From positions 25,562,356 through 25,626,355 of the forward strand of contig NC_089273.1 in assembly GCF_963678975.1 (NCBI RefSeq): 64,000 nucleotides of DNA, read 5' to 3'. Source of the DNA: Dysidea avara. Lineage: Eukaryota > Porifera > Demospongiae > Dictyoceratida > Dysideidae. Positions within the stretch are counted from its first letter, which is position 1. Each line of letters opens with the position of its first letter. The notes below the pieces were generated by a model. That model was not told the origin of the DNA. It worked only from the letters and a program-made list of their open reading frames with translations, and searched no databases. The translations under genes were made by a program, and so were the position numbers. Shown here piece by piece: positions 2,246 through 24,506 of this stretch.

Positions 2246-2304
2246 TTCTATAGAGTAAATCATGTGATTGCAGCTATGTATAACTAATCAATGTAGCTAC
2301 AGCT

Positions 2305-2660
2305 TTGGCATGCAGTCAGTCATTATCTACCCCCTTGCCAGTTCTATCTGGGGTTTCTCAAGGGAGTATTTTGGGACCCCTACTCTTCATTATTTACATG
2401 AATGATTTACCATCTTGTGTTACCATCAGTAAAACTTTACTATTCATTGACGACACCAAGATTTATAATACTGTTTGTAGTCCTGGAGATATTTCACTGT
2501 TTCAAAATGATTTAGACTCAGCAACTTTGTGGAGTACGAGATATAATATGTCCTTTAATTCAATAAAGAGTGTCCACTTATATTAATGCAAAAGTCATCA
2601 CTAATTACAAAATAGCTGACACACAGGTTTTAACAAATAGTTCACATAAAAATCTCGGAA
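2305..2660 (+). pseudogene. CR1/L2-like LINE reverse transcriptase fragment (5' part)
   Basis: The translated frame carries the non-LTR RT motifs GVSQGSILGPLLFIIYMNDLP (family: GVPQGSILGPLLF.IYINDLP) and FIDDTK in place of the catalytic FADDTK. After a frame change near 2583 the reading goes on as TNSSHKNLGI, where the composite element begins. The remaining C-terminal part resumes at 6147. Endonuclease and N-terminal RT are absent, so it is 5'-truncated and dead. The D-D pair of the active site is kept, but the preceding A is I. Confidence 0.8.
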
Positions 2661-3489
2661 TCAAGACACACGGTAGTGTGTCGTGCGGCCCAAGAAGCCG
2701 GCGTGCCACCCGTGAATATCATGTATTCAAAGATATACTATAGCCTATGGTATATTAACAGGAAGAAAGAAAACGCACTTTTCACACCTATGTAGCTCTG
2801 TGATCCCTTATCCGATTGGAACCAAATTTGCTAGAGAGGTGCCGGCGAGTAAGGGGAGTCTACACACCAAATTTGAAGAAAATTGCTCCAGCCATTTCCG
2901 AGATACGAGCGAACACAATTTCGTTTTAATTTCTTTGTTTTTTTCTTCTACTTCATTTCGCACTCTTCGCAAAATCCGCCATAAAACACGAATGCGTGCT
3001 CGGATCGGACTGAAATTTGGCACACTTAAAGGGCTCATTAAGTCGAATCTGTGTACCAACTTTGGTAGGAATCCGATGAACATTCACGGAGTTATGACCG
3101 ATTATTTGCGTAAAATAAGGTCGAAGGTCTGTCACGCCTACAGGGTAAACTCCTTTGAGGAATCAGTTGAAAATTGCTATGTAGATGGAGAAACCATCGT
3201 AGGAGTGCCTTTTTGTGGTTTGAAAGGAATCAGGATAAAGACCATGGAGATATGACACAAAACCCAACCTGTGTCAAAATTACGCGATCAATTTTTATGA
3301 ATAAAAAACTATTAGTTTTCGTGTCTATCAGGCAAACCGCTTAGAGCAATGAGCTGAAAATCAGTATGTAGCTGGAATAATCATCATAGAAAGTCCTTGC
3401 AGTAGTACAGAAGAATCGGAGTACAAACCACTGAGTTATGATTCGAAAGGCAACTACGTGTAGCAAATGCGAGATCGAGATACTCTAAT

Positions 3490-5575
3490 AGAACAGTCAC
3501 CCTAATAAAGCATTCAGCTGCATTTATAATTTACTCAATTATATTACATTGCAAATTATTCTGTAGGGAATTCAGTTACAAACAAGTCACCCTGTAGTCA
3601 GATTAGCCAGAAGAAAGTACCTAATAGAGAGTTCAGCTACAAAGAAACCATCATGTAGAGAGTTCAGCTCAGAATTGCCCTGTAGAGAGATCAGCTAGAA
3701 GAAGTTATCTTGTAGAGAGTTCAGTTACAAAGAAACAATCATGCAAAGTGTTCAACTACAAACAAATCACCCAGTAGAAAGTTCCGCTATGAACAGATCA
3801 CACTGTAGAGAGTTCAGTTAGAAGCAAGTCATGTTGTAGAGAGATCAGCTAGAAGAAGTAACCTTGTAGAGAGTTCAGCTACAAAGAAACCACCATGTAA
3901 GAGAGTTCAGCTGCAAACAAATCACCTGTAGAGAGTTCAGCAGGAACAAGTCACCCTGTACAGAGATCAGCTAGAAACAAGTCACCCTGTAGAGAATTCA
4001 GCTACTAACAAATCACCCTGTAGAAAGATCAGGTAGAAGAAGTTACCTTGTAGATAGTTCAGCTGCTAACAAATCCCCTGTAGAGAGTTCAGCTAGAAAC
4101 AGGTCACCCTGTAGAGAGATCAGCTAGAAACAAGTCACCCTGTAGAGAGTTCAGCTAGAAGAAGTCACATTGTAGAGAGTTCAGCTACAAAGAAACTACC
4201 ATGTAGAGAGTTCAGCTGCAAACAAATCACCCTGTAGAGAACTCAGCTACAAACAAATATGCCCTGTAGAAAGATCAGCTAGAAGAAGTTACCTTGTAGG
4301 GAGTTCAGCTACGAACAGATCACCCTGTAGAGAGTTCAGCTACAAACAAATCACACTGTAGAGAGTTCAGTTACAAAGAAACCACAATGTAGTCTAAGAG
4401 AGTTCAGCTGCAAAAAAATCAATCACTCTGTAGAGAGTTCAGCTAGAAGAAGTCACCTTGTAGAGAGTTCAGCTGCAAATAAATCACCCTGTAGAGAATT
4501 CAGTTCTAACAAATCACCCTGTAGAAAGATCAGCTAGAAGAAGTTAACTTGTAGAGAGTTCAGCTACAAAGAAACCACCATGTAGAGAGTTCAGCTACAA
4601 ACAAATCACCTGTAGAGAATTCAGCTAGAAACAAGTCACCCTGTAGAGAGATCAGCTAGAAACAAGTCACCCTGTAGAGAGTTCAGCTAGAAGAAATCAC
4701 ATTGTAGAGAGTTCAGCTACAAAGAAACTACCATGTAGAGAGTTCAGCTACAATGAAACTACCATGTAGAGAGTTCAGCTAGAAGAAGTCACATTGTAGA
4801 GAATTCAGCTACAAAGAAACTACCATGTAGAGAGTTCAGCTGCAAACAAATCACCCTGTAGAAAGTTCAGCTATGAACAGATCACCCTGCAGAGAGATCA
4901 GCTAGAAACAAGTCACCCTGTAGAGAGTTCAGCTAGAAGAAATACCTTGTAGAGGGTTCAGCTACAAAGAAACCACCATGTAGAGAGTTCAGCTGCAAAC
5001 AAATCACCCAGTAGATAGTTCAGCTATGAACAGATCACCCTGTTGAAAGTTCAGTTAGAAACAAGTCATCCTATAGAGAGATCACCTAGAAGTATCACCT
5101 TGTAGAGAGTGCAGCTACAAGCAAATCACCTGTAGAGAGTTCAGCTACAAACAAATCACCCTGTAGAGAGATCAGCTAGAAGAAGTCACCTTGTAGAGAG
5201 TTCAGCTATAAAGAAACCACCACGTAGAGAATTCAGCTGCAAACAAACACCCTGTAGAGAACTCAGCTACAAACAAATCGCCCTGTAGAAAGATCAGCTA
5301 GAAGAAGTTACCTTGTAGGGATTTCAGCTACAAACAAATCACCTTGTAGAGAGTTCAGCTACAAAGAAATCATCATGTAGAGAGTTCAGCTGCAAACAAA
5401 TCATCCTGTAGAGAATTCAACTACAAACAGATAACCCTGCAGAGAGTTCAGCTAGAGTCAAGTCACCCTGTAGAGAGAATCCTGTAAAGAGTTCATCTAC
5501 ATACAAGCAGATCACCCTGTAGAGAGTTCAGCTACATTTCAAGTCACCCAGTAGAGAGATCAGCTGTAAATTATC
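3490..5575 (+). repeat. ~31-bp tandem array, copy 1 (about 65-70 units)
   Basis: Units follow TGTAGAGAGTTCAGCTA + CAAACAAATCACCC, with variants GATCAGCTAGAAGAAG, AAGAAACCACCA and CAAGTCACCC. Length is 29-31 bp, so no frame is kept and it is not coding. Unit number is estimated from array length. Units are contiguous without spacers. The first units (from 3484) grade into the dispersed word ACTCTAATAGAACAGTCAC. Confidence 0.95.
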
Positions 5576-5757
5576 CTGTGGGGATTAATTGACACGTAAT
5601 AAATATATGCTCTGTTTTTATATTATGAACTCTTGATATATGCATTATATATATAATTTGTACATTTACTGATAAAATCAGAATGAGTTAAAGTATTTAT
5701 AAAATCTGCTTCATCTTTTTCTTTTTCCTGTGGTAAAGAAAAATATATAGGTTAAAA

Positions 5758-5791
5758 AGCCCCAAAGCTGGCCATAGGCCGGCTTTGGGGT
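5758..5791. repeat. Small hairpin before the terminal module
   Basis: GCCCCAAAGCTGGCC ATA GGCCGGCTTTGGGG folds into a ~15-bp stem with a 3-nt loop. The same feature precedes the module in copy 2 (23652-23686). Its conserved place near the end of both copies suggests it belongs to the element. Confidence 0.7.
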
Positions 5792-5814
5792 ATGCAAATA
5801 CAAAAAGAAGTGAA

Positions 5815-6146
5815 ATCTAATCAAAAACAGCCAAGCTGTAAAAAAAGGAGTGCGGCCCTTGAAAAGGCTATGGTGAAAAAAGATGTGACATCCAAGGTGG
5901 TGGCCAAGAAATGGCTGTGATGGTAGGTTAATGGTAAAAATGTTAATAACCACAATTCAGGTGAATTTTGTGCCAATTGACCAAGCGGCACCAAATTCAC
6001 CTGAATTGTCGTTATTAAAATTTTTACCATTAACCTACCATCACAGCTATTTCTTGGCCACCACCTTGGATTTCACATTTTTTTTCACCATAGCCTTTTC
6101 AAGGGCCACACTCCTTTTTTTACAGCTTGGCTGTTTTTGATTAGAT
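5815..6146. repeat. Terminal fold-back module of composite element, copy 1
   Basis: A near-palindrome of ~332 bp. ATCTAATCAAAAACAGCCAA at the left is the reverse complement of the right end. The arms continue through TGGTGGCCAAGAAATGGCTG and CAGGTGAATTTTG to a centre near 5980. The open frames on both strands (about 69 aa each) come from the palindrome. Related modules: 1-209, 23710-24034 and diverged ones at 38865-38990 and 44335-44545. Confidence 0.85.
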
Positions 6147-6339
6147 TATAATATCATCAGACGGGATCAACACTACAAAAACATAATCCCTAAGACCTAC
6201 AGAATGCTAGGACTGTTCCATCGCAGCTTTAGCAAGCATCAAGAAACAGTGACAGCCAAGAGAACTTTGTTTATTTCCTTAGTGAGATCGCAAGTTATAT
6301 ATGGTTCAGTGATTTGGAAATCTAACCATATCAAGCAGG
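6147..6339 (+). pseudogene. LINE reverse transcriptase fragment (C-terminal part after the insertion)
   Basis: The frame reads DQHYKNIIPKTYRMLG then LFHRSFSKHQE and LVRSQVIYGSVIWK, typical of the region after the RT domain in CR1/L2-like LINEs (family: AYRMLGL.RR.F....LY.SLVRSQL.Y.S..W). It continues the fragment ending at 2660 and is cut off at 6339 by the next insertion. Confidence 0.75.
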
Positions 6340-6745
6340 GGCGGATCCAGCTGCAGGGGGGGGGGGCTGAAGCCCCCCTTCATATTTAGGCTTTACTTGA
6401 TCAATATGCTGAGAATTATCATGAAATTTTGTCTTAGCATAATTATATGATCACTAATAATACAAATACTCATAAACCACCTTATAAACATCTTTCCAAG
6501 GTATTATCAGTGGATTTATGCTAAAGTTTATGCAACAAGGACCTAGATCAGCATTAGAGGTGTACAAGATCGAGATACTCTAATAGAGCAGTCAGCTAAC
6601 TACTCTAAAGAACATTCACTGGAAACATGTAGTTGGTTCTGTTATGAAATTTTTCCAAATCTGCCTACACCTATACATACAATGAAGTGTATTGGTCTGT
6701 TTAAAAGGCTTCATTCATCCACTTGTGTAGTTAATATGTTAGGAC
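6339..6745 (+). mobile_element. Truncated CAGGGGCGGATCC-type MITE
   Basis: It starts CAGGGGCGGATCCAG and a G/C tract, then is collinear (as reverse complement) with 50463-50871 of the full-length copy at 49996-50871. It ends near CACTTGTGTA without the second terminus. It contains the dispersed word GATCGAGATACTCTAATAG at 6568. It sits directly in the LINE remnant. Confidence 0.75.
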
Positions 6746-6773
6746 CTTGGAGTTACTGCACGATGGCTATATC

Positions 6774-7003
6774 TTAGTGGGAAACACGGATCCCTGGTGA
6801 TATATGTGCGGGGAAACACGAATCCCTAGGGATATGTGTGTGCGGTGAAATATTTAAAAAATCGCTACGGGAAACACATATCACTGACAGCTTTTGGTGG
6901 GAAACACGGGTCTCTAGTGATATGTGTGCGGGGAAACACAGATCCTTAGGAATATGTGTGCGGGAAACACGTTACCCGGGGAAACATATATCACTGTGAC
7001 ACC
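6774..7003 (+). repeat. GGGAAACACG minisatellite upstream of the carbonic anhydrase gene
   Basis: Five or so degenerate ~33-bp units: GGGAAACACGGATCCCTGG then TGATATATGTGCG. It is an inverted partner of 1346-1510. It ends about 85 bp before the TATA box of the gene, so it may be part of its upstream region, though nothing shows a regulatory role. Confidence 0.65.
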
Positions 7004-7010
7004 GCCATTG

Positions 7011-7149
7011 ATTTTCCACTCTTCCTTTGCTCCGCGGAAGTTGCGGTTACGCGTTTTACGTAATTAAAAGTTACGTATATTAGCTAGGTATATAAAGACA
7101 GTGCATAATGTGATTTGCCAGCTTGGTGATTATAGCTTGTGAAGCGGAT
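7011..7149 (+). promoter_or_regulatory. Promoter region of the first carbonic anhydrase
   Basis: A TATA box (TATATAAAG, 7090-7098) lies about 55 bp before the ATG. The block from CATTGATTTTCC to the ATG is also found before the second gene (58409-58490 and 58749-58809), apart from the MITE there. Conservation through the TATA box shows the gene was copied as DNA with its promoter. The segment has CpG-containing words (GCGGTTACGCG). Confidence 0.65.
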
Positions 7150-8040
7150 ATGAAGCTGTTAGAGGTGTCGCTGTGCATTCTGCTTTCCCTGGTAACAGCA
7201 AACGCGATTGGTGTAGCGTGGAACTACTCCGACCAAGACGCTTGGAAGACTGTAGACGGTTGGGATTGTGATGGTAGACGCCAATCACCTATCAATATTG
7301 TCACTTCTGCTTTGGTTAGAAGATCTAGTCTAATTGATTTAGTCTTGACGAATTTCGATCAAACCTACGACGGCAACTGGACAAACACTGGCCATGCCTT
7401 GCAGTTCAATCCCGATACCAGCTCACTTGTGCCAACATTCCAGAATCATTTGGGTACCTATCAGTTAGTGCAATTTCACTTCCATTGGGGAAGAACTAGT
7501 GCGGTGGGATCGGAGCACCAGGTTGACGGGAGCACTTACGGCGGTGAGCTGCACTTCGTCACTAGAAAGACCACCGGAAGTGCTACAGCTGGCGACGCGT
7601 TTGCTGTCTTGGGTGTACTGCTAAGAGGTGACAGCTCCTTATCATTGTCCGGGGTATGGAGTTCACTCGCTAGTGACATTCCAAGCGATGAAGGAGACTA
7701 CGTGTCACTTAGTGGAATACGACCAATGGATATGATACCAGCAAACCTAAGCTACTACTATTATCAAGGATCACTGACCACACCAGCCTGCAGTGAAGTT
7801 GTCCAGTGGTTTCTACTCAGAAATGCCGTCTCTGTCCCAGAGCAATTCCTGCAAGCCATGCGTACCAGTGTTTTAGATGCTGACGGTGCAGTCCTACAAC
7901 AGAATTACCGAGACACACAACCTCTTAATGGTCGAAAAGTCATGATACAAGGAACTGGCGGATCACCTGTCAGACAAAATAGTCTCAGCATAATTCTACT
8001 GGTGCTTTTGTCAGTTTTTATACTAGGACTCTGCCATTAG
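7150..8040 (+). CDS. Alpha-class carbonic anhydrase, secreted and probably GPI-anchored
   Basis: Zinc enzyme that interconverts CO2 and bicarbonate. The ATG at 7150 is chosen because a hydrophobic signal peptide (MKLLEVSLCILLSLVTANA) follows at once; upstream frame has no ATG. The 296-aa protein has the family blocks in order: QSPINI, NTGHALQF (proton-shuttle His), FHFHWG (two zinc His), GSEHQVDG, ELHFV (third zinc His), and LTTPACSE. Cys in GWDCDG and in TTPACSE could form the disulphide of secreted CAs. The C-terminus (LSIILLVLLSVFILGLCH after a polar spacer) looks like a GPI signal or membrane anchor. A TTP-P to TTP-A change distinguishes it from the second copy. It is a single exon, unusual for animal alpha-CAs. 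ATTAAA about 33 nt after the stop may be the poly(A) signal. Function is known from the family; anchoring is inferred. Confidence 0.93.
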   Translation: MKLLEVSLCILLSLVTANAIGVAWNYSDQDAWKTVDGWDCDGRRQSPINIVTSALVRRSSLIDLVLTNFDQTYDGNWTNTGHALQFNPDTSSLVPTFQNHLGTYQLVQFHFHWGRTSAVGSEHQVDGSTYGGELHFVTRKTTGSATAGDAFAVLGVLLRGDSSLSLSGVWSSLASDIPSDEGDYVSLSGIRPMDMIPANLSYYYYQGSLTTPACSEVVQWFLLRNAVSVPEQFLQAMRTSVLDADGAVLQQNYRDTQPLNGRKVMIQGTGGSPVRQNSLSIILLVLLSVFILGLCH

Positions 8041-11000
8041 CTAATGTGTGTGATAGCTAAGTCACTGGCAACATTAAAGATAATTGTGTTATAGCTACAA
8101 TTTGATGTAAAATTCATTGCAGACTCCATGCATGTATATATGTTCAGTATAGTTCAAGAATTTTTTGTAAAAGTTATTCAGTAAATGGAAATACAAGCAA
8201 GATAAGCTCACTGTATAGATTAAGTTTTTTGATGTTGTGTGACACTATATAAAGATAATAACTATACACTTTATTATGACTTCTTTATATATACACTTTT
8301 CACATGTTCTTATGATGTGCTAAATGGAACATGATAGCTATATGCATGCACTCATCACCTATACCTATTAACCTCATGGTAATCGGCAAAGCGTTCTTCC
8401 TTACTGGAGCGAGCACACATACATACACATTACATGAAACAACAAAGGAATAAGTATACAATACTATGGGATGATATACTGCAAATGGGCCTTGGGTGGT
8501 GTGGGCAGCTGCAGTGGTTACTCTAATTGAATTCAGTGCAGCTAAAAGTGGCACACACACAGAGGTCAGCAGGCATTGGTCACATGTTTGCATCATAAGC
8601 AATTTTTGTTAGTTACAATAAGTACTTACGCCACCCTGCATGATAATTTTGTTATTACGCCACCCCGCATGATAATTTTGTTAGCTATGAGACAGTACTG
8701 ATAAATTAAGGCTAACTTGAGTTTGGAATGGAAGCCTGATAAAATTTAACTGGAGGAGAGTGACATCACACATGTGTGCTAAATGCATTTGGGATGATGT
8801 AATATTGACACCTACATTACAGTAAGCAAGTGTCTATATACTCATGTATACCTTGCTTTCCAAACATGACATGCCAACATAATTTTATAGCCACACACAT
8901 GAGGTAGCTAAAACACTTGTTTAGTAAAGTGTAAAGTATATAAATCCTGTATGGAATGTGAATGTCATAAATGCCATATATAGTAAACAATATAGCAAAG
9001 ATTCAAAGCTAGTTATCTTTGTGGCAAAAAATTTCTTCTTCTTTGATACATAAAATAATGTGGTCATAAACTTTGTGCATAAGAGACTTAGTTTTGTGGT
9101 GTTTGTGTAAGCCAACAATGTTATGTTATTGGCAACTGTACACAAAACTAAACAATATACACCTTGTGCCTGCATCCACTCTAAAAATGAAATCTGCTTT
9201 GCACACAAAAACAGTGCACACATTGAGACCAAAAGTGTGCACCATGACACCAACTTAATTTTTTGCAGACATATATGGACTTATATCTGTGCAATGATGA
9301 AGATTTTGAAGTTTATTTAGCTTCATAAATTATATATACGATCAACATGCACTTTTCAGCCAGCTTTTATTATAAACTGTTACCAGTGAATTTCATATAA
9401 TAATATTATGTAGATATATGATGGCTCAGGAGCCCACTCATACTTGCCTGCATAATGGGTCTACATATCTGGCCAATGTGCTCAAATCTTCCCTATTGGC
9501 TGTTATACTGAAATAGTAACCATTCAAATAGTATCTACAAGTATTCATGGCTTTATGGTGCCATTTTTGGTAAGAAACACAATTCATACAATGCCATGCA
9601 TCAGTAATTGCATATAATATAATTCATCAGTATAAGTTTTTATTACATACGTAGGTGTTAATATATTTAAAAGTAAGGCAGCTAAATGTTTGCAAAATCA
9701 GCCGGGATAATAATTTGAATCATGTTTCATCTCATAATGGAGGTTTAATGGTATGCACTTACTATGCATCTAATGATATTCCTGATAGTAAGGTCAGTTA
9801 GTATGCTTGGGGTAACCACATGTAATAATCTAACACTTATGTGTCCTCAAATCCCACAGATGCTTTTCATAGAGACCTCCCTAGACTAAATTAATATAGT
9901 GATAAGCACATCTCACACATGATAACGTGATAACGATGTGCTAGCATGTATTTTTTGATTGAATTTCCAGCATTGTTGACTATGCTATTGAATTACTTGA
10001 TAATATATACAACTGATGTTATCAGTGCTAATCAAGGCTAAGATCAGCCAAAAGCCCTGGTATACAGCCCTGGTAATCATGAAAGACTGGCTATGCCTCT
10101 GAGTGTTATTGGCTTGATAAAATGGCTTGATACAATGTGTCACTTTCTGCATCTGTATAGTGGTCATTGATAGCAGGCTGGTAGCAAGCTGGTTCTCTAT
10201 GCTTACAGGTGAATATCAAGCACATAATTATATTCATTTAGAAACTTAGAAACAACTGTTACAGTTAAATAAAAGTAGTACTTCTTCTTGTGATATGTAG
10301 ATCTTGAGTGCATATGTATATATACATATATTACTGTGCCTCCCTCCCATCTCAGCTATACATGTATGAGTGTATATATATAGTAACATTAAACATTTTA
10401 ACTATGTGGTTATTGTCTGTAGTTTATTATATTCACTGATGTGGGTATATTCTAAGTCTATGAGCTACTCATTACCTGTAGACTATTAACTAGAACTATA
10501 AAACTAACTGATAATTAAGCACAGCTTTCATCACAAATGTCAACAGAAAAATGTGGAACTTCAAGATATCTACACAGCTATGTAAGTTAGCTACACATGT
10601 ATACTTTGAAATTTGATACAACACTTGTATACTTGTATAACCATATAGAGGTCTGTAAGTGATAGCTACAAGGAAGTCAGTCACTCATTAAATTTCTGCA
10701 CCTTAAATTAAGATATTACTATGAAAATTATCACCAAACATTATTTTATTCCACATTAGTAGTCTATGTCATCATGTAGGTTTTTGTAACTAAGGAGACA
10801 ATGAAGCCTTGGGCATGGTGTTGATATGCTACACATCCCACTACACAGCATTGACAACTATTTACAGTCTTGACACAGTAAAGCTCTGTTGTTAATGGAA
10901 TGGTTTGAATAATTAAATGCCTGGAAATGAAAAAAAAACATGGACCTGGAGACAAAATAATAAAACGTTATGAAGATTTTGATACTGTATCCCAAAGATT

Positions 11001-14000
11001 ACATAAAATTCATAGTGCTTTTAGATTTAGTACATAGACTGGTTATCAGCTAACTGGTTAGAGTGGCAAAGATTGCATTTAATGCATTTGCAAAATCAAG
11101 TCACCACTTGGTCTGGGATTCTTTCCTGCATTCTTCACATTTCAGCAACATGTTTCTGACTCCCTGTATTCACAGACTTTAAGCCTTCTCACAGGTCTCT
11201 AGTGGGATAGCATTCACGGAAAATAATTATTTCCCTAGCTATTGATCCAGAGTATAAATACGATCGGGCGGCCTGCAAAAATAGGGTTGCTTCTGATGCT
11301 CTATAAATAGAATTAGTAACCCATTTGCCAAATTAGCAGTCCAGCAATATTCCGTCATGATCCCAGCAATAGAGTGATACACTGATATTTATTACATATA
11401 AACTAGAATAACTGTACCTGCAGATAACATAGTTATTTCTAAAATGGTCAATGCAGGTGCGGCAGAAGCCCACAGTGCTTATGTATGTACAGTAAATGTA
11501 TACGGCCTCAAGTGACTTATAACCAACAACTTATTAAATTTTCACGGTGATTAAAACAGCTCCCTGATCATGACTGGCATTCACTTCACACATGTACTAT
11601 CAGCAGCACATTCAAGCTGTAGTTCTTATTTGAAGGAATGCTATAATTATAAAGGCTGTGATGTGTTAACTATGCAAGGGTAGTATAAACCACAATAGCC
11701 ACATGCAGCTATAAAGGTCAGCAGTAATATAACATAAAGAAACAGCAAAAATTCTATAATCAAGTACCATAATATTATACTGTATTAAGAGATGTGGTTT
11801 TAGTATGTGGAACCAATAAATGAAAAAGGACATGTATGTATGGTGCACACTATACAGAGCCAGGAGCTAACAGAGCTAACAACTGTGGAACAACTTCTAA
11901 CCACTTCAAACAGTTCTAAAACTATGTGATGCAGACATGTATAGGCTATGGTTAAACCCCCACACATTTAGCAGTAACAGTGATAATGCTAGTAGTAAGT
12001 AGTTTGATTAATCAAGTCATGTGATGAACACATGTGTATAGTTGGTGTGGTTTTAACATAGAATGTTTATGCTATAATGTTAACCTTGTTTCAGCACATG
12101 TGGGAGCAAGTTAGGGCATACATTAAGCCCACTTTCACAGTATGTGCTTCAAGTGACTCTTTTCAGGATTGTGAAAATGTTATTAGTCTGTGGGAATGAC
12201 CTATCTACATGAATAAATTAATTGATTTAATCCCATTATCCATTTGTTAATTCTCAACAACTGTGTCACTAGTTACATGTATTATCGGTATAGTCACCAG
12301 TAGACAACCCTGGTCTAGCAGGTATGTCATACTGTGTTTAATGTGCATTGTTATGTAACATGATTATTGTACATTGCTAATACTCTGTTGTACATCTATT
12401 TCAGTTCCTTTATTTGTGTTTATATGTACTCGTATTAAACATTTCGTGCATTTGATTAAAACCATAAATACTTTGTTGCCCCACTATAGCCACCTATAAA
12501 GTTATTAGCAAAACTTTGAACAACATCAATTGTAATTATTAAAGTGTCTACTGTACCTTTTAAATTGCATCCATCACTGTGTTAAGCTCAGTCAATTATT
12601 ATTTCTTCTGGTGATACAGAACTGTTGATAGGTGCTTATTAGTGTTAATAAGGTAAAGGCTTTATTCCGTGAACAGGCTTAATGTGTTACTTAACCTGTG
12701 ATTTTCCAGTTAAATACTCTCTTGTATTACAAACTCTTGGTACCATGGCCTATAGCCAAACCAATAATAATGAGAGCATCTTAGTGACCAAGTAGCTGTT
12801 AACATCTCAGCAGGATAATTTTATCCTCCCTTGTAACAATATGCATGAAAGTGGTTGTTGTATCACCATGAACACTTACACGCAAGCTTTCAGTATAGTT
12901 GTTGTCACATGTTTGCCTATTAGGCCACACCAACTTTATTATTAGTTTCTCATCTATCCCTTAACACAATTTGCTAACCACATCAGTGGCTTAAGCAACT
13001 TTGTAACTTATTAACTAGGTATAGAGCAGAATAAGAAGTTGCATTCTGAGTTAGCTACGTATCAATGATATAATAAACAAAACAAAACATCCACAATTCC
13101 ACACTGTTAGTTATTGGGTGGATGAGAATAAATTTATGCGGCCTTTTAGATATCTGTGCTTACAGATCAAACATGTAGATAAGTAGGTATGTGCCAACTA
13201 CAGTACATGACATGTGTGATTAAATTTTTGGTATGCAATGTGTCCTGTTGCAATGCATTTATATTATTACTGGAGTATACATGGTATATTATCATGCTAT
13301 GGTCAAGCAATTTCATTTGCTTCACAATACAAGTTACATAAAACAAATATTCTTTTCCAGCACTGAGATAGGACCTGTTGTGGTGTAACAGCAAGTATTT
13401 TTGGCCCACATACCCTGTTTTTGCAGGCACATAATTGTACAAATATCTCTGTAAGGCTTAAAATTATTCCCTTGTATAGGCATGTGGGTTATAAATGTAA
13501 AATAGGGATATAAAAGTATTATTGATATGCCGCAAAAAAATTTGATTTCAGAACATGACAATTACACAAGTCCTTTACCATCAGACAAGACCTCACAAAA
13601 CAGAAACCTTTAAACATTTATTTTAAAAATGACCCCCAAGATTTGGGAAGGAACCAGTATTAGAATTTTATGAGGCATGTCAGAGTATGTTCCAATAATC
13701 TCTCAGTGATGAACTTACATTCAAAATTCATGTATACAAGAACTGTTACACAATTATACACAGTGATTGGCTATTTGCTATAATTTTTTAGCCAGGTACT
13801 AACTACTCTGTTGATACGTCATGTATGCTCAGCTCTTGACTTGTACCAACAATATCACGGTTTTGTATAGGCATCTAATCATGTCTGTAATTTTCTTCTC
13901 ACAACTAAGTATAATTTTATTCTCACTATTGTGTTGTAGCCTACATGTGGGTGTACAAATGTACATCTTAAAGTAGTGGGTGTGTGACTAAATTTAGGAA

Positions 14001-14317
14001 AACATTGAAATTAACACTTGAATACATTGGAAGATACCATTGAAAATATGAACACATATTTCAATCCAGTATAGCCAACTTGGGATGGTCAACATATGGA
14101 AATTTTATATTTCACCGTGATGTAGCTCAGTAACTATACATGTGATCTTTAGTCCATTATAAGCTAGGCCATGCGCGGTGCAACCAGAGTTGTTACATGT
14201 GCATGTACTCATAACTGTAACCAGCTAGTATTGACAGACTCCATAAAAAGAACATTAACAGAAGCTGTGCAACACGATGCTGAGTTGTGTTATGTGGACT
14301 AATAGATGCACTACATT
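8041..14317. other. Long AT-rich intergenic stretch, no gene supported
   Basis: No protein family, RNA gene or TIR element is recognised. Small items: a 28-bp tandem duplication at about 8628-8685 (TTACGCCACCC-GCATGATAA twice), the dispersed repeat at 11097-11220, a diverged half of the TGTGACC/CAGGC MITE type near 13380-13440, and a segment at 13680-13860 resembling 39720-39900. All open frames here are 60-110 aa, with no motif, and lie in low-complexity AT-rich sequence. Confidence 0.5.
11097..11220 (+). repeat. Dispersed repeat, copy 2
   Basis: Counterpart of 851-965 in the same orientation, with an extra ~15-bp stretch (TGTATTCACAGACTTTAAGC region). No terminal structure seen. Confidence 0.6.
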
Positions 14318-14753
14318 TGTGACCGGATTTCACATAACAAGGCTTCCACACACACAAAATCAAACTTACGTTTTTACCAGAAATGGATTGCTGGCCTAAT
14401 ACACTATCATATTCCACACTGTACTTCCTTCAGGACTGGCAAGTCTGGTTTCTGTGGCAGCTTTCTTCCGACCCTGTCAAAGCCACAAGTGGGAGATTGG
14501 TGCCATTGAATGGCCATGTCTTTGTGATAATGGTGTGTAGTGAGCTGGTACTTCACAGAGAGCTCGCCAATAGTGTTCTCAGTCAATTTGGAGTGATTTG
14601 AGGGCCATGGGGAGCCCAAACTTGGCTTCTGGATTCCAATCGTCTTCTTGCTTCATTTTATACCCCTATATTAAGCCCACCCACCCCCACCCTCCTACCC
14701 ACCGCCCCCCACCCTCCCACCCACTGCCCCCCACCCTCCCACCCACTGCCCTC
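14318..14753 (+). mobile_element. TGTGACC-type MITE, left part (split by an LTR element)
   Basis: It begins TGTGACCGGATTTCACATAA and is collinear with the intact copy at 55779-56375 as far as the CCCACC-rich tract (14680-14758). The right part resumes at 24206 and ends at 24506 with TTTTGTCAAATTCAGTCACA. The two halves are separated by the Ty3/Gypsy element, which lies in the expanded C-rich tract. No coding. Confidence 0.8.
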
Positions 14754-14758
14754 CCACC

Positions 14759-14930
14759 TGTAATAGTATTAGTTCTATCACTAACTAGATTCTCATAGAT
14801 TAACTAGAGAGCACAAACTACACAACAACTCATAAAGCCTACTACAACAACTCTAAGGATGCATCATACATTATGTGGTTACATCACACCAATTACATAA
14901 TTACCATAGAAACCTAATGTGTCTACTACA
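14759..14930 (-). repeat. 3' LTR of the Ty3/Gypsy element
   Basis: 172 bp with TG...CA ends. It is nearly identical to 24035-24200. The purine-rich tract is immediately adjacent at 14931-14941. Confidence 0.9.
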
Positions 14931-15158
14931 TCTCCCTCCTTAAGTATGATGCATGCTACAAAATGTTTGTCATTGTTCACTCTCAACAAACCGTATAGGA
15001 GGTCTAGAAATTCTTCCACTTCTAGTCTGAACTACAGAAGGGTTTTCATCTGTAACAGTGATAAAAGTTTTGTCTGGAATTTCTATTGGTGTTGGTATTG
15101 GATTGTCAACACTTGAAGCTGTTTCTTGGTTGGCTAGAGGTATCAAATCTCTTCTGTT

Positions 15159-17493
15159 TCATCTGTAATAGTGGTAAGGTGTTTGGACCATATAGGATCT
15201 GTTGGATAGTTCTTCTGTGACTACACCTTCTGCTTCAATGTCAATTATCCAAACTGACTCTCCTTTTTGCAAGGGAATTAAATCCTTTGCACGATGTCGC
15301 TGATCAAAGTTGATTTTTTGTCTTTTTCTCATGGACTTCTCCTTTTTCCTCAGTTTGTTGGCATCTGGTAATTTTGGCTTTAACTGCTTTGGGAGTACTG
15401 GAATAGTAGTATGTAGCCGTCTCCCCATCAGTAGTTCAGCTGGACTATAACCATTCTCTAAAGGAGTAGAACAGTAAGCAAGCATTGCTAAATATGGGTC
15501 ATCGCTTTTGTTTAACAGACCTTTTACTGTTCTGACAGCTCTTTCTGCTGCACCATTGGCTTGAGGGTATTTTGGGCTGCTTGTAACAAGTGTAAAACCG
15601 TATTGCTCAGAAAATGACTTGAACAATGCTGCTGAATATTGTGGACCATTATCTGAAACGACAGTTTCAGGAATGCCATGACGAGCAAATATTGACTTAA
15701 GATGTTGTACTATGTTTTGTGATGTCATGGAAGACAACTTGGCAACCTCAATGTAACGAGAATAGTAATCTATGACTAGTAAATAGCTAGAATTTCTCCA
15801 TTCAAAAATGTCAGTCCCTACTTTCTCCCATGGTCTATTTGGAAATGGTGATGGCAACAATGGTTCCACATGGTTCAATCTGTGCTTAGAGCAAACAATA
15901 CACTTTGAAACTTTTTCTTCAATGTCCTTCTTTATGCCTGGCCACCACACGGAATCTTTAGCTCGCTGTTGGCATTTTGTCAAGCCTTGATGACCAGAAT
16001 GTAATTTTTCAATAATCTCAGGACGGAGAGAGGAAGGAATAATCAGTCGATTGCCTCTTAGGAGAATACCATTGTTAACACTCAGCTCATTTTTAACAGG
16101 AATGTAGTACTTCAGCATACCATTCAGGTGTTTTCTGGCTGGCCACCCATTTTGACAGTATACTTTAAGTTTCTTACAGGTTTCATCCTGTTCTTGGAGA
16201 CATTTGATCTCCTGTAGCCGCTTTGTAGCAGCTGGAAGACGATACATAAGCATTTACCTCTTTATGAAAGGCTTCTGCAGTGTGGTCTTCAGTCAGAACT
16301 GGTGCTCTGGAAAGAGTGTCTGCTGTGCAAATATCTTTTCCAGGAACATGATAAATTGAGTAACTAAATCTCATCAGGCGTAGTCTAAAACGTTGTACTC
16401 TTATTGGCATTTCGTCAAGGCTCTTTGTAGATAGCAGTGGAACAAGAGGTTTGTGGTCCGTTTCCAATTTGAAGTGTATACCCAACAAATACTGTTGAAA
16501 TCTTTCACAAGCCCAGGTTGCAGCAAGGGCTTCTTTTTCAATTTGGGCATAGTTCTGTTCAGCTGCACTTAATGCTCAAGAAATATATGCAACTGGACGA
16601 AGGCTGCAATTTTTCTGCTGCTGTCATAAAACGGCTCCCAGTCCATATGCTGAAGCATCGGCAGAAACAATGGTTTCTAGAGTTAGATCATACATTGCGA
16701 GAACTTCACTGGATGTGATAGCATTTTTGAGACTTGTAAAAGCTCTGTCTTGTGCTTCTCCCCATACCCACTGAGTTTTAGTACTAAGGAGTTCTTGCAA
16801 GGGCTGAGTCTTGTCAGTTATATGTGGAGAAAATTTGCTTAGTTGATTAAGCATACCAAGAAATCGACGAAGTTCAGTGAGGTTACTTGGTGGTTTCATG
16901 TCACAAATTACATGGATTTTGTTTTGATCAAGCTGAATTCCTTCACTGTTTACAGTTTGGCCTAGGAAACTGATGCTGGTAGCACCGAAAATGCATTTCT
17001 CTTTGCTAAGTGTAAGGCCTGCTTCACTTATTCTTCTGAGAGTTGCTTTGAGACACTGATCATGTTCCTGTTCTGTTTTGCCATAAACTAAAACGTCATC
17101 AATTAGACAGATAACTCCCTCAAGATCTGACAAAATACCACTCATCTTTCGTTGGAAATGTTCAGGTGCAGAGGTTATTCCAAATGGAAGACGATTAAAG
17201 GCATATCTCCCAAATGGAGTAATAAATGTTATCAGTTTTGAGGATTCAGGTGTTAATTCAATTTGCCAGAAACCAGAATTAGCGTCAAGTTTTGAAAAAT
17301 ACTTTGCATCTCCAACTTGAGCTAACGTCTGTTCTACAGATGGCAAGATGTGACGCTCACGGCAAACACTTGTGTTAAGTTTTGTCAGGTCAACACAGAT
17401 TCGAACTTTGCCATTGGGTTTTGGAACAACAACAATCGGAGAACACCATTCTGTGGGCTCTTCAATCTTTGAAATCACCCCAAGTGCTTCCAT
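15159..17493 (-). mobile_element. Fossil pol region: RT, RNase H, integrase
   Basis: RT motifs include YFSKLDANSGFWQIEL and CLIDDVLVYG. RNase H shows SADASAYGLGAVL. The integrase shows an HHCC-type zinc region (HSGHQGLTKC...CIVC) and a DDE-type core (GTDIFEW, SDNGPQYS, ANGAAERAV). Family order is Ty3/Gypsy. The region is broken as a coding unit. Confidence 0.9.
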
Positions 17494-17538
17494 TCTTTGG
17501 AGCTCTTCTTTAACTTTAGGTAGCAGTGGTATTGCTAT

Positions 17539-18855
17539 TCAACGTGGGGCATTTAGGGCAAATGGCTTAGCATCATTTCTGAGTTTGATCTGGTAACTGT
17601 CTTGAAGCTTGCCTAGTCCTGTAAATAATTGTGGGAACTGAATGAAAATATCACTGGCTTGTACTGGCTCAACAAATGACAGAATCTGTAGGGCTTCAAT
17701 GGCAGGACTTCCTAACAAAGCTTTGTGTAAGTCTTCTATCACATAGACTGTTTGCTGGATTGATCTGTGGTTTCTTTCAAGGTAGCCCTCAAACTTCCCT
17801 TTGACTTTCAGTACATGTTGGCCTGGACCACTGAGTGTTCTGTCTGCTGGTGACAATGGACCATCTCTGCTTCTAGAGTATTCTGTGTTGGGAATAACTG
17901 TCACATCTGCTCCTGTGTCAATTTTAAACTGAACTGCTTGATCATTCAATGTCAGCTCTATCACCCATGGGTTGCTTTTATTTTCATGAATCATTCCTAG
18001 AAAGGAATTATCATCTGATTCTTCAGCTGATTTTGATGTCACTAGAGAATCTACACCATCTTGAATTTCTGTTGTTTCAGCTAGTTGGTCAATGGCACTT
18101 TTACTTCTACAAAATGCTTTGAAGTGGCCTTTCTTTTTACAGTTGTGGCAAATGGCTTCACTTGCTGGGCAGTAAGCTCTACCATGTGATGGAGTTTGGC
18201 CACACCTGGAGCAATTGTTAGGCCTTCCTGGTGGATTTTGTGGTCTTGAAGAATCCTTACTGTGGTGGGAGTATGGTTGCTTCTTCACCAGTTCAATTTG
18301 TGCTTCTCTTAGCAAGTCATTTCTCACTGTTCTCTGTTGCAGTTTTATGGATTCGCTCTGTCAAGCCATCGCTGTGGCTTTTTCTAAGGTAAGCTTACTA
18401 TCCATCTGCAGTTTTTCTGACAGCTGGCTGTCTCTGATACCAACAACTATTCTGTCTCTGACCATTTGATCATGTAACTATCCATAATCACAATGTTCTG
18501 CCAAGGAATAGAGATCATTTATGAAGTCATCAACGGGCTCGCCTTCTTGCTGCACTCTTCTGTTAAATTTGGCATGCTCAAAGATAACATTGCAGCGCTT
18601 AACAAAGTGAGAGTCAAACTTGACTTTTACTGTATCGTACACTTTTGCCTGCTCTTCACTGAGGTTAAATGACTGGAAAATATAATCAGCCTTTGCACCC
18701 ATAGAGTACACAAGAGTATTTACTTGGTTTACCTCTGACTTTGAGGATAGGCCAGAAGCTACTCGAAATCTCTCAAATCTGCAAATCCACTGGGGCCATT
18801 CTTCAGGTCTCTTGAAGTTGAATGGTTTAATTGGCTTAATCTGGTAGGATGCCAT
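17539..18855 (-). mobile_element. Fossil gag and protease region
   Basis: Gag begins near 18855 (MASYQIKPIKPFNFKRPEEW) and carries two CCHC-like knuckles (CSRCGQTPSHGRAYC and CHNCKKKGHFKAFC). The aspartic protease follows with FKIDTGADVTVIP near 17920. It belongs to the same element as the pol region and is likewise not intact. Confidence 0.85.
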
Positions 18856-19699
18856 AACTGGTAACAAGGTTCTCAATTTCTGACACCATGTAATCAAGAC
18901 ACACGATAGTGTGTCGTGCGGCCCAAGAAGCCGGCGCGCCACACCGTGAGTATATTGACAGGAAGAACGAAAACGTCATTTTCACACCTTTGTATCTCGG
19001 TGATCACTTATCTGATTGGAACCAAATTTACTACGCAGTTGCCCGCCAGCCAAGGGAGTCTACATTCCAAATTTGAAGGAAATCGCTCCAGCCATTTCCG
19101 AGATACGAGCTTCCAAAGTTTCGTTTTTTTTTCTTCGTTTTTTTTTTCTTCTTCTTCGTCTTTTCGCACACTTGCAAAAATTGCTGTAACAAGCAAACGC
19201 GTACTCCGATCGCCTTGAAATTTGACACACATAAAGGGAGTCCAAAGGCGAATCCTAGCATCAAATTTGGTACAAATCCGATGAATGGTTCAGGAGTTAT
19301 GACCGATTATTCGCGTAAAACAAGATCGATTTGTTGTCACGCCTACAGGGTAAACCGCTTCATGGAATGAGTTGAAATTGCTATGTAGATGGAGTAACCA
19401 TCGTAGGAGTGCCTTTCGGTGGTTTGAAAGGAATCGAGATAAAGACCACGGAGATATGACACAAAACCCAACCTGTGTCACAATTACGCGATTGATTTTT
19501 ATGAATAAAAAGTATTAGTTTTCACGCCTACTAGGCAAACCGCTTAGAGCAATGAGCTGAAAATCGGTGTATAGCTGGAATAATCTTCATAGAAAGTCCT
19601 TGCAGTAGTACAGAAGAATCGAATTACAAATCACTGAGTTATGATTCGAAAGCCAACTCCGTGTAGCAAATGCGAGATCGAGATACTCTAGTAGAACAG

Positions 19700-22600
19700 T
19701 CACCCTAATAGAGCATTCGGCTAATTTATTTACTCCATTATAGAATTTTATTACATCACAAGTTATTCTGTAGGGAGTTCAGCTGCAAACAGTTAATCTT
19801 ATAGACAGTTCGGCAAGAAGACAGTCACCATGTGGAGAGTTAAGCAAATATATCACTATAGAAATTCAGAACATTACAAGTCACCCTGAAGAAAGTTCAG
19901 CTATAAACAAGTCATGCTCTGTGTAGAGAATTCAGCTACAATTAAGTCACTCTCTAGAGAATTCAGTTACACAGAATTCAGCTACACACAGGTCACTGTG
20001 GAGAGAGTTCAGCTACAAACAAATTACCCTTTAGAGTGATCAGCTACAAACAAGCCACTTTGCAGGGTGTTCAGCTGCAACAAATCAACCTTTAGAGCAA
20101 TCAGCAATGAACAAATCAACACAAATCTACCTGTAGAGAGATCAGCTAGAAACAAATCACCCTAAAGAGAGTTCAGCTACAAAAAATCACCCTGTAGAGA
20201 CATCAGCTAGAAACTAGACACAATGTAAGGAGTTCAGCTACAAGCAATCACCCTGTAGAGAGTTCAGCTAAAACAAATCAACCTACAGAGAGATCAGCTA
20301 CAAACAAATCACCTTATAGAGAGTTCAGCTACAAACAAATTACTCTATAGAGAGATCGGCTACAAACAAATCAACCTGCAGAGAGATCAGCTACACACAA
20401 ATCAACATGTAGAGAGATCAACTACAAACAAATCACCCTGTAGAGAGATCAGCTAGAAACTACACACAATGTAAGGAGTTCAGCTACAAATAAATCACCG
20501 TGTAGAGAGTTCAGCTAAAACAAATCAACCTGCAGAGAGATCAGCTACACACAAATCAACTTGTAGAGAGATCAGCTACAAACAAATCACCCTGTAGAGA
20601 GATCAGCTAGAAACTACACACAATGTAAGGAGTTCAGCTACAAACAAATCACCCTGAAGAGAGGTCAGCTACAAAAAATCACCCTGTAGAGAGATCAGCT
20701 AGAAACAAATCACCCTGAAAAGAAGTCAGCTACAAAAAAATCACCCTGTAGAGAGATCAGCTACAAACAAATTGCCCTGTAGAGAGATCAGCTACAAGCA
20801 AAACACCCTGTAGAGAGTTCAGCAACAAAGAAACCACCAAGTAGAGAGTTCAGCTACAAACAAATTACCCTGTAGAGAGATCGGCTACAAACAAATCAGC
20901 CTGTAGAGAGTTCAGCTAAAACAAATCAACCTGCAGAGAGATCAACTACAAACAAATCACCTTATAGAGAGTTCAGCTACAAACAAATTACCCTATAGAG
21001 AGATCGGCTACAAACAATCAACCTGCAGAGAGATCAGCTACACACAAATCAACTTGTAGAGAGATCAACTACAAACAAATCACGCTGTAGAGAGATCAGC
21101 TAGAAACTACGCACAATGTAAGGAGTTCAGCTACAAATAAATCACCCTGTAGAGAGTTCAGCTAAAACAAATCAACCTGCAGAGAGATCAGCTACAAACA
21201 AATCACCTTTTAGACAGTTCAGCTACAAATAAATTACCTTGTAGAGAGATCGGCTACAAACAAATCAACCTGCAGAGAGATCAGCTACACACAATTCAAC
21301 TTGTAGAGAGATCAGCTACAAACAAATCACCCTGTAGAGAGATCAGCTAGAAACTATACACAATGTAAGGAGTTCAGCTACAAGCAAATCACCGTGTAGA
21401 GAGTTCAGCTACAAACAAACCAACCTGTAGAGCGATCAGCTAGAAACAAATCACCCTGAAGAGAGGTCAACTACAAAAAAATCACCCTGTAGAGAGATCA
21501 GCTAGAAACAAATCACCCTGAAGAGAGGTCAGCTACAAACAAAACACTTTGCAGAGAATTCAGCTACAAACAAATCAGCTTGTAGAGAGATCAGTTACAC
21601 ACAAATCAACCTGTAGAGAGATAAGCTAGAAACAAATCACCCTGTAGAGAGTAGCTACAAGCAAAACACCCTGTAGAGAGTTCAGCAACAAGGAAACCAC
21701 CATGTAGAGAGTTCAGCTGCAAACAAATCACCTTATAGAGTTCAGCTACAAACAAATCACCCTGTAGAGAGATCAGCTAGAAACTAGACACAATGTAAGG
21801 AGTTCAGCTATAAGCAAATCACCCTTTAGTGAGTTCAGCTACAAAACATCAACCTGCAGTGAGATCACCTACAAAAAAGCACGTGCACCTTGTACAGAGT
21901 TCAGCTACAAACAAATTACCCTGTAGAGAGATCGGCTACAAACAAATCAACCAGTAGAAAGATCAGCTACACACAAATCAACTTGTAGAGAGATCAGCTA
22001 CAAACAAATCACCCTGTAGAGAGATCAGCTAGAAACTAGACACAATGTAAGGAGTTCAGCTACACAAGTAAATCACCCTGTAGAGAGTTCAGCTAAAACA
22101 AATCAACCTGCAGAGAGATCAGCTACAAATAAATCACTTTACAGACAGTTCAGCTACAAACAAATTACCTTGTAGAGAGATCGGCTGCAAATTAATCAAC
22201 CTGCAGATAGATCAGCTACAGACAAATCAACTTGTAGAGAGATCAGCTACAAACAAATCACCCTGTAGAGAGATCAGCTAGAAACTAGATACAATGCAAG
22301 GAGTTCAGCTACAAGCAAAATCACCCTTTAGTGAGTTCAGCTACAAACAAATCAACCTGCAGTGAGATCACCCACAAAAACGCACTTGTACAGAGTTCAG
22401 TTACAAACAAATCACCCTGTAGAGAGATCAGGTAGAAGAATTCACCTTGTAGAGAGTTCAGCAACAAAGAAACCACCATGTAGAGAGTTCAGCTGCAAAC
22501 AAATCACCCGGTAGAAAGATCAGCTAGAAGAAGTTACCTTGTAGAGAGTTCAGTTACAAAGGACCATCATATAGAGAGTTCAGCTACAAAGAAATTACCC

Positions 22601-23470
22601 CGTAGAGAGTTCAGCTAGAAGAAGTCACCTTGTAAAGAGTTCAGCTACAAAGAAACCATCATGTACAGAGTTCAGCTACAAAGAAACCACCTGCACAGAA
22701 TTCAGCTACAAACAAATTACCCTGTATAGAGATCAGCTAGAAGAAGTTACCTTGTAGATAGTTCAGCTACAACAATTCACCCTGTAGAAAGATCAGCTAG
22801 AAGAAGTCACCTTGTAGAGTGTTCAGTTACAAAGAAACCATCATGTAGAGAGTTCAGCTGCAAACAAATCACTCTGTAGAGAGTTCAGCTACAAAGAAAC
22901 CGCCATGTAGAGAGTTCAGCCTCATACAAACCACCTTGTAGAGAATTCAACTACAACAAATCACCCTGTAGAGAAGAAGTTACCTTGTAGAGAGTTCAGC
23001 TACAAAGAAACCTTCATGTAGGGAGTTCAGCTACAAAGAAACCACCATGTAGAGAGTTTAGCTGCAAACAAATCACCTGTAGAGAGTTCAGCTAGAAAAA
23101 AATCACCCCGTAGAGAGATCAGCTGGACGAAGTCACCTTGTAGAGAGTTCAGCTACAAAGAAACCATCATGTAGAGAGTTCAGCTGCAAACAAATCACCT
23201 TGCAGAGAGTTCAGCTACAAAAAAATCACCCTGTAGAGAGTTCAGCTAGACGAAGTCACCTTATAGAGAGTTCAGCTACAAAGAAACCATCATGTAGAGA
23301 GTTCGGCTACAAAGACACCACCATGTAGAGAGTTTAGCTGCAAACAAATCACCTGTAGAGAGTTCAGCTAGAAACAAAATACCCTGTAGAGAGACCAGCT
23401 AGAAGAGGTTACCTTGTAGAGAGTTCAGCTATAAAGAAACCATCCTGTATATAGTTCAGCTACATTTCAA
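19700..23470 (+). repeat. ~31-bp tandem array, copy 2 (about 120 units) with higher-order structure
   Basis: The same unit as copy 1. A variant unit with AAACTA-ACACAATGTAAGG recurs at about 20209, 20457, 20611, 21104, 21351, 21781, 22033 and 22282. Four of the gaps are close to 248 bp (eight units) or twice that, so a higher-order repeat has been amplified between about 20.2 and 22.4 kb. The right part (22.4-23.4 kb) uses the AGAAGAAGTCACC and AAGAAACCACCA variants common in copy 1. Confidence 0.93.
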
Positions 23471-23709
23471 GTCACCCAGTAGAGAGATCAGCTGCAAAAA
23501 AATATCCTGTGGGGAATAATCAGCATGTAATAAATATATGTATATAATTTGTATAATTACTAATAAAATCAAAAATAATTGAAGTACTAAAATTCTTCTT
23601 TAAGTTCTTTTCTTCATCCTGTAGTAAAGAAAAAAAACACATGGGTTAAAAAAGCCCCAAAGCCAGCCATAGGCCGGCTTTGCAGTATACAAATACAAAA
23701 AGAAGTGAT

Positions 23710-24034
23710 ATCTAATCAAAAACAGCCAAGCTGTAAAAAAAGGTGCGGCCCCCAAAAAAGGCCATGGTGAAAAAAGATGTGAAATCCAAGGTGGCGGCCA
23801 AGAAATGGCTGTGATGGTAGGTTAATGGTTACATTTTAATAACGACAATTCAGGTGAATTTTGTGCCGCTTGGTCTTGGCACCAAATTCACCTGAATTGT
23901 TGTTATTAAAATGTAACCATTAACCTACCATCACAGCCATTTCTTGGCCGCCACCTTGGATTTCACATCTTTTTTCACCATGGCCTTTTTGGGGGCCGCA
24001 CCTTTTTTTACAGCTTGGCTGTTTTTGATTAGAT
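23710..24034. repeat. Terminal fold-back module of composite element, copy 2
   Basis: A near-perfect palindrome of 325 bp. ATCTAATCAAAAACAGCCAA at the left matches the reverse complement of the right end, and the centre lies near 23873. It is more symmetrical than copy 1, as expected for the younger insertion. Confidence 0.88.
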
Positions 24035-24200
24035 AGTATTTGCTCTATCACTAACTAGATTCTCATAGATTAACTAGAGAGCACAAACTACACAACAACT
24101 CATAAAGCCTACTACAACAACTCTAAGGATGCATCATACATTATGTGGTTACATCACACCAATTACATAATTACCATAGAAACCTAATGTGTCTACTACA
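24035..24200 (-). repeat. 5' LTR of the Ty3/Gypsy element (main part)
   Basis: It matches 14765-14930 with two differences. The last six bases of the LTR lie on the far side of the composite insertion at 18888-18893. Confidence 0.88.
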
Positions 24201-24205
24201 CCACC

Positions 24206-24506
24206 CACCACCCCCCACCCTATTACTACCACCCTATTACTACCACCCTATTACTACCACCCTATTACTACCACCTGTGATATTATTACCCGCTCGAGAA
24301 AAGCTGCCCAAAACAGGGCTAATTTCAGGTATCAGAAATGTATACACCCACTCAATGATAGCTAGTAAATAGATGCATACTTGGTGCAAATTTTGTTTGC
24401 ACAGCTGTAGGCACTGGGAAGTTATTACACAATGATTACTTAAAATTGCCATATCTCCTAACGAAGCTTTGTGCGTCGAAGCCGGGTTTTGTCAAATTCA
24501 GTCACA
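24206..24506 (+). mobile_element. TGTGACC-type MITE, right part
   Basis: Continuation of 14318-14753 after the LTR element. It begins with a CTATTACTACCAC tandem tract (about five units, 24228-24280), then is collinear with 56140-56375 and ends TTTTGTCAAATTCAGTCACA. Confidence 0.8.

Follow-up and report, generated by a model that had tools for sequence, protein, structure and literature searches.

A Helitron-like element with an unusual 310-332-bp terminal palindrome, present in thousands of copies in the genome of the sponge Dysidea avara

The eukaryotic rolling-circle DNA transposons comprise, among others, Helitron1, Helitron2, and the Helentrons with their non-autonomous associates (HINE), for which we use the class definitions given in excerpts of PMC4067079, PMC3627910, PMC5148889, and PMC7492417. 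Against this background, we analyzed a repeat in a 64,000-nt stretch of the genome of the marine sponge Dysidea avara (contig NC_089273.1, positions 25,562,356 to 25,626,355, forward strand; hereafter the window, with position 1 as its first letter), which works like a Helitron but fits none of these classes. With Helitron1 (e.g., Helraiser), as described in excerpts of PMC5876387 and PMC4067079, it shares the 5'-TC, precise insertion between A and T without target-site duplication, head-to-tail junctions, and a requirement for the 5' end that is stricter than that for the 3' end. Where Helitron1 has a hairpin of 16-20 nt, about 11 nt before its 3' end, the element has one of 13 nt that is weak by itself. 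In contrast to Helitron1, the element adds a 5' hairpin, a 3' palindrome of 310-332 bp, and a minisatellite. Helitron2 (PMC3627910; FoHeli of Fusarium, PMC5148889) likewise carries a hairpin at either end plus a short asymmetric inverted repeat, and FoHeli1 starts with TC and a hairpin just as the element does (PMC5148889). However, this repeat lies 0-2 nt from the 5' end in Helitron2 and at nt 23 here, the element inserts at A|T where Helitron2 uses TTTT|T/C, and a RepHel gene with the element's ends was not found among the 9 of 150 Helitron_like_N matches examined. The HINE, DINE-1, pearl, and Cg_HINE elements, according to the portions of PMC4067079 and PMC7492417 used, are also non-autonomous, with two modules flanking a central tandem array and a 3' palindrome. 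They target T|T or T-rich sites, though, and not A|T; moreover, the 3' palindromes of the mite families described there measure 5-10 bp and the array units of oyster HINE about 140-180 bp, as compared to 310-332 bp and 31 bp, respectively, here. The HINE-like plan that had been proposed from the window alone (central tandem array, hairpins, no genes) thus holds. The accompanying claim of a target outside the known classes does not, since A|T without duplication is the target of canonical Helitrons and not the T|T of Helentrons and HINEs. What is unusual relative to the known systems is the palindrome that makes up the 3' terminus.

Two complete copies on the plus strand of the window are members of one dispersed family. 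Copy A (3,485 bp, 2661-6145) is inserted at A|T, as seen from its flanks and from paralogous empty sites. Its 5' terminus (2661-2682) consists of TCAA and a hairpin with a 7-bp stem (GACACAC-GGTA-GTGTGTC, 2665-2682), followed by GTGCGGCCC (2683-2691), the 5' half of a 9-bp asymmetric inverted repeat whose 3' partner is mutated in this copy. The left block (2661-3560), which contains two diverged units of about 146 bp that are 66 % alike (3144-3289 and 3331-3476), leads into a 31-bp tandem array of about 62-64 units (3561-5566), a small hairpin (GCCCCAAAGCTGGCC-ATA-GGCCGGCTTTGGGGT, 5759-5791; z -4.4 against shuffles), and a 330-bp terminal palindrome (5816-6145). Within the latter, 11 nt separate a subterminal hairpin (ACAGC-TTG-GCTGT) from the 3' end. 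Copy B (5,140 bp, 18894-24033, likewise at A|T) belongs to a different subfamily and comprises the 5' hairpin with GTGCGGCCC (18894-18924), a 31-bp array with 116 core hits (19769-23494), and a 323-bp terminal palindrome (23711-24033). A third copy, also on the plus strand and cut by the window edge, is represented by its right end only (1-208; part of the palindrome with the foot GGATTAGA), and a left-block fragment without terminus lies at 1140-1330 (plus strand; 77 % over 194). The order of parts is accordingly terminal hairpin, block of about 0.87 kb, 31-bp array, small hairpin, and long palindrome, enclosed by two termini that differ from each other in sequence (left TCAAGACACAC...GTGTGTC, i.e., 5'-TCAAG...; right ...GATTAGA-3'). 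Searches of the window for repeats recovered the same layout, namely arrays with a 31-bp unit at 3561-5477 and 19978-23510, inverted arms of 166 bp (5814-5979/5982-6147) and 132 bp (23736-23867/23878-24009), left blocks common to both copies, and the common end at 57-184.

The original prediction of two full copies and an end fragment with shared order therefore proved real, with exact limits at 2661-6145, 18894-24033, and 1-208; that both copies merely lie in one larger duplicated segment is ruled out by their different hosts and by left blocks that are only about 82 % alike. Degraded palindromes had furthermore been suggested near 44335 and 38865, and matches do exist there (three of 33-42 bp with 83-88 % identity at 44365-44541; 80 % over 49 at 38853-38900), weak as they are. 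The absence of a transposase noted at the outset was also confirmed: none of the 20 complete copies described below holds a long open reading frame (ORF), the longest ATG-initiated one measuring 59-93 aa in each, and a 151-aa ORF with GTG start in copy A (2800-3255) had no Pfam match.

Genome-wide, the repeat is one mobile element with thousands of copies. The exact 30-nt left terminus occurs 6,419 times as compared to none for a reversed control, far beyond chance, and 8,751 times if any base is allowed in the hairpin loop and behind the hairpin. The first 740 bp of copy A gave 5,015 places at first look, and the 40 scored ones were 91-100 % identical. Twenty of these left-block places were fetched with their flanks; together with the window, the fetched loci (L-numbers, also used below for other fetched regions; C-numbers denote contigs of the assembly G000) form the sample from which 20 complete copies were obtained. 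These span 2,225-7,042 bp (median 4.2 kb) and all show the same order of left block, array (30-180 core hits), small hairpin, palindrome, and end, which indicates that the set moves as one element, as had been presumed. The palindrome is complete in 18 of them, interrupted in L023, and shortened in L025. L013_787+ was left out of the count, as the palindrome assigned to it belongs to its neighbor L013_357-, and three loci (L019, L021, and L027) have a left end with no right end within the fetched stretch. No match to the terminus was found in viral contigs or in contigs of prokaryote genomes. The family may make up as much as about 5-7 % of the 550-Mb genome, a rough upper estimate in which shortened copies are counted as full length. 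Its thousands of copies are natural replicates in which the arrest of rolling-circle copying, the origin of concatemers and of new 3' ends, and the growth of a minisatellite within a mobile element can be tested. As to the last point, the 31-bp array changes fast: in the main subfamily (15 copies, median left-block divergence 2.4 %), the number of core hits per array varies between 58 and 159, and the 23 pairs that are less than 2 % diverged differ by 0 to 67 core hits.

The linkage of the parts was assessed on C1:0-7.49 Mb, where an exact left end lies within 8 kb on the correct side of 33 of 55 palindrome modules and on the wrong side of nine. Left block, array, and palindrome are thus not usually found apart with different borders. 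Of the 22 unlinked modules, four were read; all four are parts of the same element: three keep the small hairpin and the array, while the fourth has the small hairpin and a tail with an insert resembling a miniature inverted-repeat transposable element (MITE). This inverted repeat sits between the small hairpin and the palindrome (L046, about 760-1010). The initial description of the element as composite is accordingly doubtful, since none of these four palindromes (of the 22) represents a separate element. That the parts stay together is true of the 20 complete copies, but not of a 2.08-kb derivative in L020 and L027 that has the left block without array and palindrome (see below).

The assembly search with the left block and the comparison of flanks, both of which had been proposed as checks, fixed the ends and the target. 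The base before the left end is A in 23 of 24 left ends read and in 6,345 of the 6,419 exact termini (98.8 %; A makes up 32 % of the window bases), and all 20 complete copies show A|element|T. All 19 right ends read are GATTAGAT (GATTAGA|T). The joined flanks of copy A matched all 40 scored places (out of 190 candidates) over their full or almost full length. Four of these paralogous empty sites were read; they run straight through the junction ...CTCGGAA|TTATAAT... (CTCGGTA in L044), and the sole alignment gap, 7 bp within the host, lies 17 bp from the junction. Insertion was thus precise and without target duplication at these four sites, although, with an element of the form T...A between flanking A and T, a cut displaced by one base would fit equally, A|T being the conventional reading. 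The first 30 nt are 98 % identical across eight left blocks representing the subfamilies, whereas the windows behind them mostly show identities of 0.55-0.89, with lower values only where they are rich in gaps. The 5' hairpin beats 197 of 200 shuffles in folding. Counted from the 5' end, GTGCGGCCC starts at nt 23, and its partner lies 33-35 nt from the 3' end; the repeat comprises 9 bp in 17 of the 20 copies and 8 bp in L018, while copy A and L017 have lost it. The right ends read all have the 13-nt subterminal hairpin, apart from single changes.

The arrangement of neighboring copies bears on the mode of movement. Exact tail-to-head junctions occur at 115 places in the genome, head-to-head junctions at two, and tail-to-tail junctions at none (the head-to-head search pattern being shorter and hence more permissive, and the tail-to-tail pattern the longest of the three), while random adjacent insertion at A|T predicts direct joins to be as frequent as inverted ones, with about 0.45 of the tail-to-head kind. 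Five of the tail-to-head joins are clustered within 24 kb of C3, all on the minus strand. In excerpts of PMC5876387, head-to-tail junctions are cited in support of rolling-circle transposition. Same-strand left ends 55 and 69 bp apart were furthermore found among 100 listed rows, where 0.12 pairs within 150 bp are expected, and a third close pair, 133 bp apart, includes a lone hairpin unit. In this unit (C1:6071160-6071187), the 5' hairpin stands alone, forming an entire inverted unit flanked by A and T; a full left end follows 133 bp further on. In L027, two left ends lie 57 bp apart. The same locus (C8; 456-2531) and L020 (C2; minus strand, 340-2417) share a 2,077-bp derivative, 99.6 % identical, that has the left terminus and left block, neither array nor palindrome, and a different 3' half. 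It ends at ...CAGCAAGGTA|T (...GGTA|T) in both loci, with differing flanks on both sides, and this end looks like a newly gained 3' end. Because short heads precede full heads, and because the derivative keeps the left end alongside a new 3' end, the left end is taken as the 5' end. Similar observations have been made elsewhere: the inner copies in Helitron tandems are 3'-truncated (PMC7492417, in part), and an intact left end is crucial while the right end, whose hairpin is a terminator, is not strictly required (PMC5876387, in part).

The joins are overwhelmingly tail-to-head, just as rolling-circle concatemers would give. Together with the defined ends, the A|T insertion without target duplication, the conserved terminal hairpins, the missing long ORF, the length-variable array, and the derivative with its new 3' end, they make the repeat very probably a Helitron-type rolling-circle DNA transposon, high in copy number and non-autonomous. 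The presumed mover of the element, a RepHel enzyme provided in trans, would nick the left (5') end, whereupon one strand would be peeled off and copying would stop at the right terminus, whose single strand is able to form the long palindromic hairpin. A missed stop would yield tail-to-head copies, and a stop that comes too early or elsewhere would yield short heads or new 3' ends.

Several points weigh against this assignment. The 3' end is TTAGA and not the CTRR of Helitron1, and the 13-nt subterminal hairpin is weak on its own (z -1.3; 25 of 200 shuffles equal it). The single left end that does not follow A, in L027, follows T and is placed 57 bp behind another left end. Tail-to-head joins could partly stem from tandem duplication of loci, and tail-to-tail joins, which would be palindromes of about 660 bp, may be lost in assemblies. 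Finally, no RepHel gene with the element's ends was found in the 9 of 150 Helitron_like_N matches examined (regions L029-L040), three of which (C13, C11, and C9) were covered in their end stretches only.

The palindrome forming the 3' terminus is the unusual feature of the element. As single-stranded DNA, the last 399 nt are predicted to fold into the small hairpin and one long hairpin with -193.7 kcal/mol, as compared to -47.8 +/- 4.0 kcal/mol for 100 shuffles. The arms show paired change between subfamilies: changes that mark subfamilies are found in both arms (e.g., at arm-alignment columns 8, 35, 45, 48, 126, and 128). Either selection or the copying of one arm from the other may be the cause. 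It is conceivable, if on the whole unlikely, that the arms are alike merely because of their recent origin and not through kept pairing. Most fetched copies indeed fall into one young subfamily (15 copies, left-block divergence as given above), the mean arm identity within copies (0.958) is not above that between copies (0.954-0.961, whole set), and a tree of 12 arms has poor support with no starred fork. Recent origin alone is, however, at odds with the subfamily-specific changes present in both arms and with a test in which arms were re-dealt among copies. In 18 copies (L023 and L025 left out), arm differences within copies sum to 151 as compared to 212.2 +/- 14.1 after re-dealing, with one of 20,000 re-dealings as low, although this test ignores shared descent; inclusion of L013_787+ gave 157 as compared to 214 +/- 14.7. 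Presumably, the palindrome stops copying. Quite tentatively, and with considerable doubt, it may be a working, oversized rolling-circle terminator that arose by snap-back duplication of the 3' end, with the last bases as hairpin foot and with arms that are re-copied from each other during single-strand passage. It speaks somewhat against this proposal that the derivative, which keeps the 5' end but lacks the palindrome, has moved as well, which shows that the palindrome is not indispensable. If true, the element would add a third type of termini to the two known from eukaryotic rolling-circle transposons, those of Helitron1 and of Helitron2/Helentron, combining the A|T target of the former with the double hairpins of Helitron2. 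No Helitron with a long terminal palindrome is apparent in the titles and abstract openings of the papers that literature searches brought up, which is no proof of absence.

Genes for the presumed enzyme are abundant, with 150 matches to Helitron_like_N (PF14214) scored out of 230 candidates in the genome. C14 and C15, which make up about 5 % of the assembly, hold 17 of these 150, mostly low-scoring divergent ones. Rep and PIF1 domains occur in one open frame in L029, L030, and L032, and a domain scan revealed UCH in L030, OTU in L032, and DUF6570 in both. Family Ib begins with TCTATATTATAAG (after A in one and T in the other of two copies read), and both copies have the 3' end ...CTGCCC...GGGCAGGTACTACAGCTAG|T. 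This 3' end also occurs in family II, of which a single copy was read by eye. Family Ia, read by eye at one locus where it stands in tandem, ends with ...CGCGCATTTTGCGCGGGTACCACTAG|T. All three end with CTAG|T, unlike the element. At L029 (1-155 and 5820-5960), a RepHel Helitron with an N-terminal OTU domain stands in exact head-to-tail tandem (CACTAG|TCTATATAAT); its 3' end was read by eye, since searching with the 3' flank led into a different abundant repeat. A fourth family (L033, L039, and L040; copies on C5 and C9) has a 62-bp tandem array near the 5' end and the inverted repeat GGGGCGAGCCTGA near both ends; its 3' border is fixed by two copies that are 99.9 % identical, and its ends differ from those of the element. 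For L030, L032, and L034, the ends are not fixed, and a scan of L030, L032, L033, and L034 for a hairpin followed by a CTRR or TTAGA end gave no match. One further candidate, the RepHel ORF of L030 as cargo of the element seen in L027, was rejected: a left end lies about 8.2 kb ahead on the same strand, but the element stops after 2.08 kb. A weak match to the palindrome arm (27 bp, 85 %, E 0.003-0.005) lies at L030:9829-9855, 564 bp behind the RepHel ORF, and in L032 (7640-9130, by eye) a long run of repeated units follows the gene of the RepHel-OTU element.

These families bear on an improbable alternative, according to which the element is a Helentron-type HINE moved by a RepHel-endonuclease enzyme into T-rich sites. 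The central tandem array, the hairpins, and the lack of genes and of target duplication would all suit such an element, and the genome does hold a RepHel family that is Helentron-like, if only in its 62-bp array and terminal inverted repeat. Yet that family has other ends, the element's inverted repeat lies at position 23 and not at the 5' tip, and 98.8 % of the exact termini mark an A|T and not a T|T target. A foldback or MITE-like cut-and-paste element, with the palindrome as a separate mobile unit joined to the minisatellite, would account for the long palindrome and the missing coding capacity but is highly improbable in view of the lack of target duplication, the two ends unlike in sequence, the nearly all direct joins, and the small hairpin and array kept beside four of four and three of four unlinked palindromes read, respectively.

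Within the window, both complete copies interrupt other mobile elements. Copy A lies in a multi-copy reverse-transcriptase repeat, the decayed reverse transcriptase of which occupies the left flank (2302-2660, plus strand; Pfam RVT_1 at 29.6 bits, barely at the cut-off) and resumes at 6146. The host of copy B is a Ty3-type element with integrase, RVT_1, and RNase H domains and with long terminal repeats (LTRs) at 14763-14939 (minus strand) and about 24034-24209 that are 97 % identical over 177. Copy B was inserted at the junction of LTR and primer site, and its flanks (GTAA and TAGTATT), when joined, give a sequence present in the host's other LTR. A short motif around GAGATACTCTAATAGAGCAGTCA, found at the border of left block and array, recurs alone at 6567-6594, 32789-32816, 38030-38084, 46345-46398, 50571-50623, and 57098-57140 and may be a separate repeat. 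Lastly, two similar carbonic anhydrase ORFs (Pfam) lie about 52 kb apart at 7123-8040 and 58783-59619.

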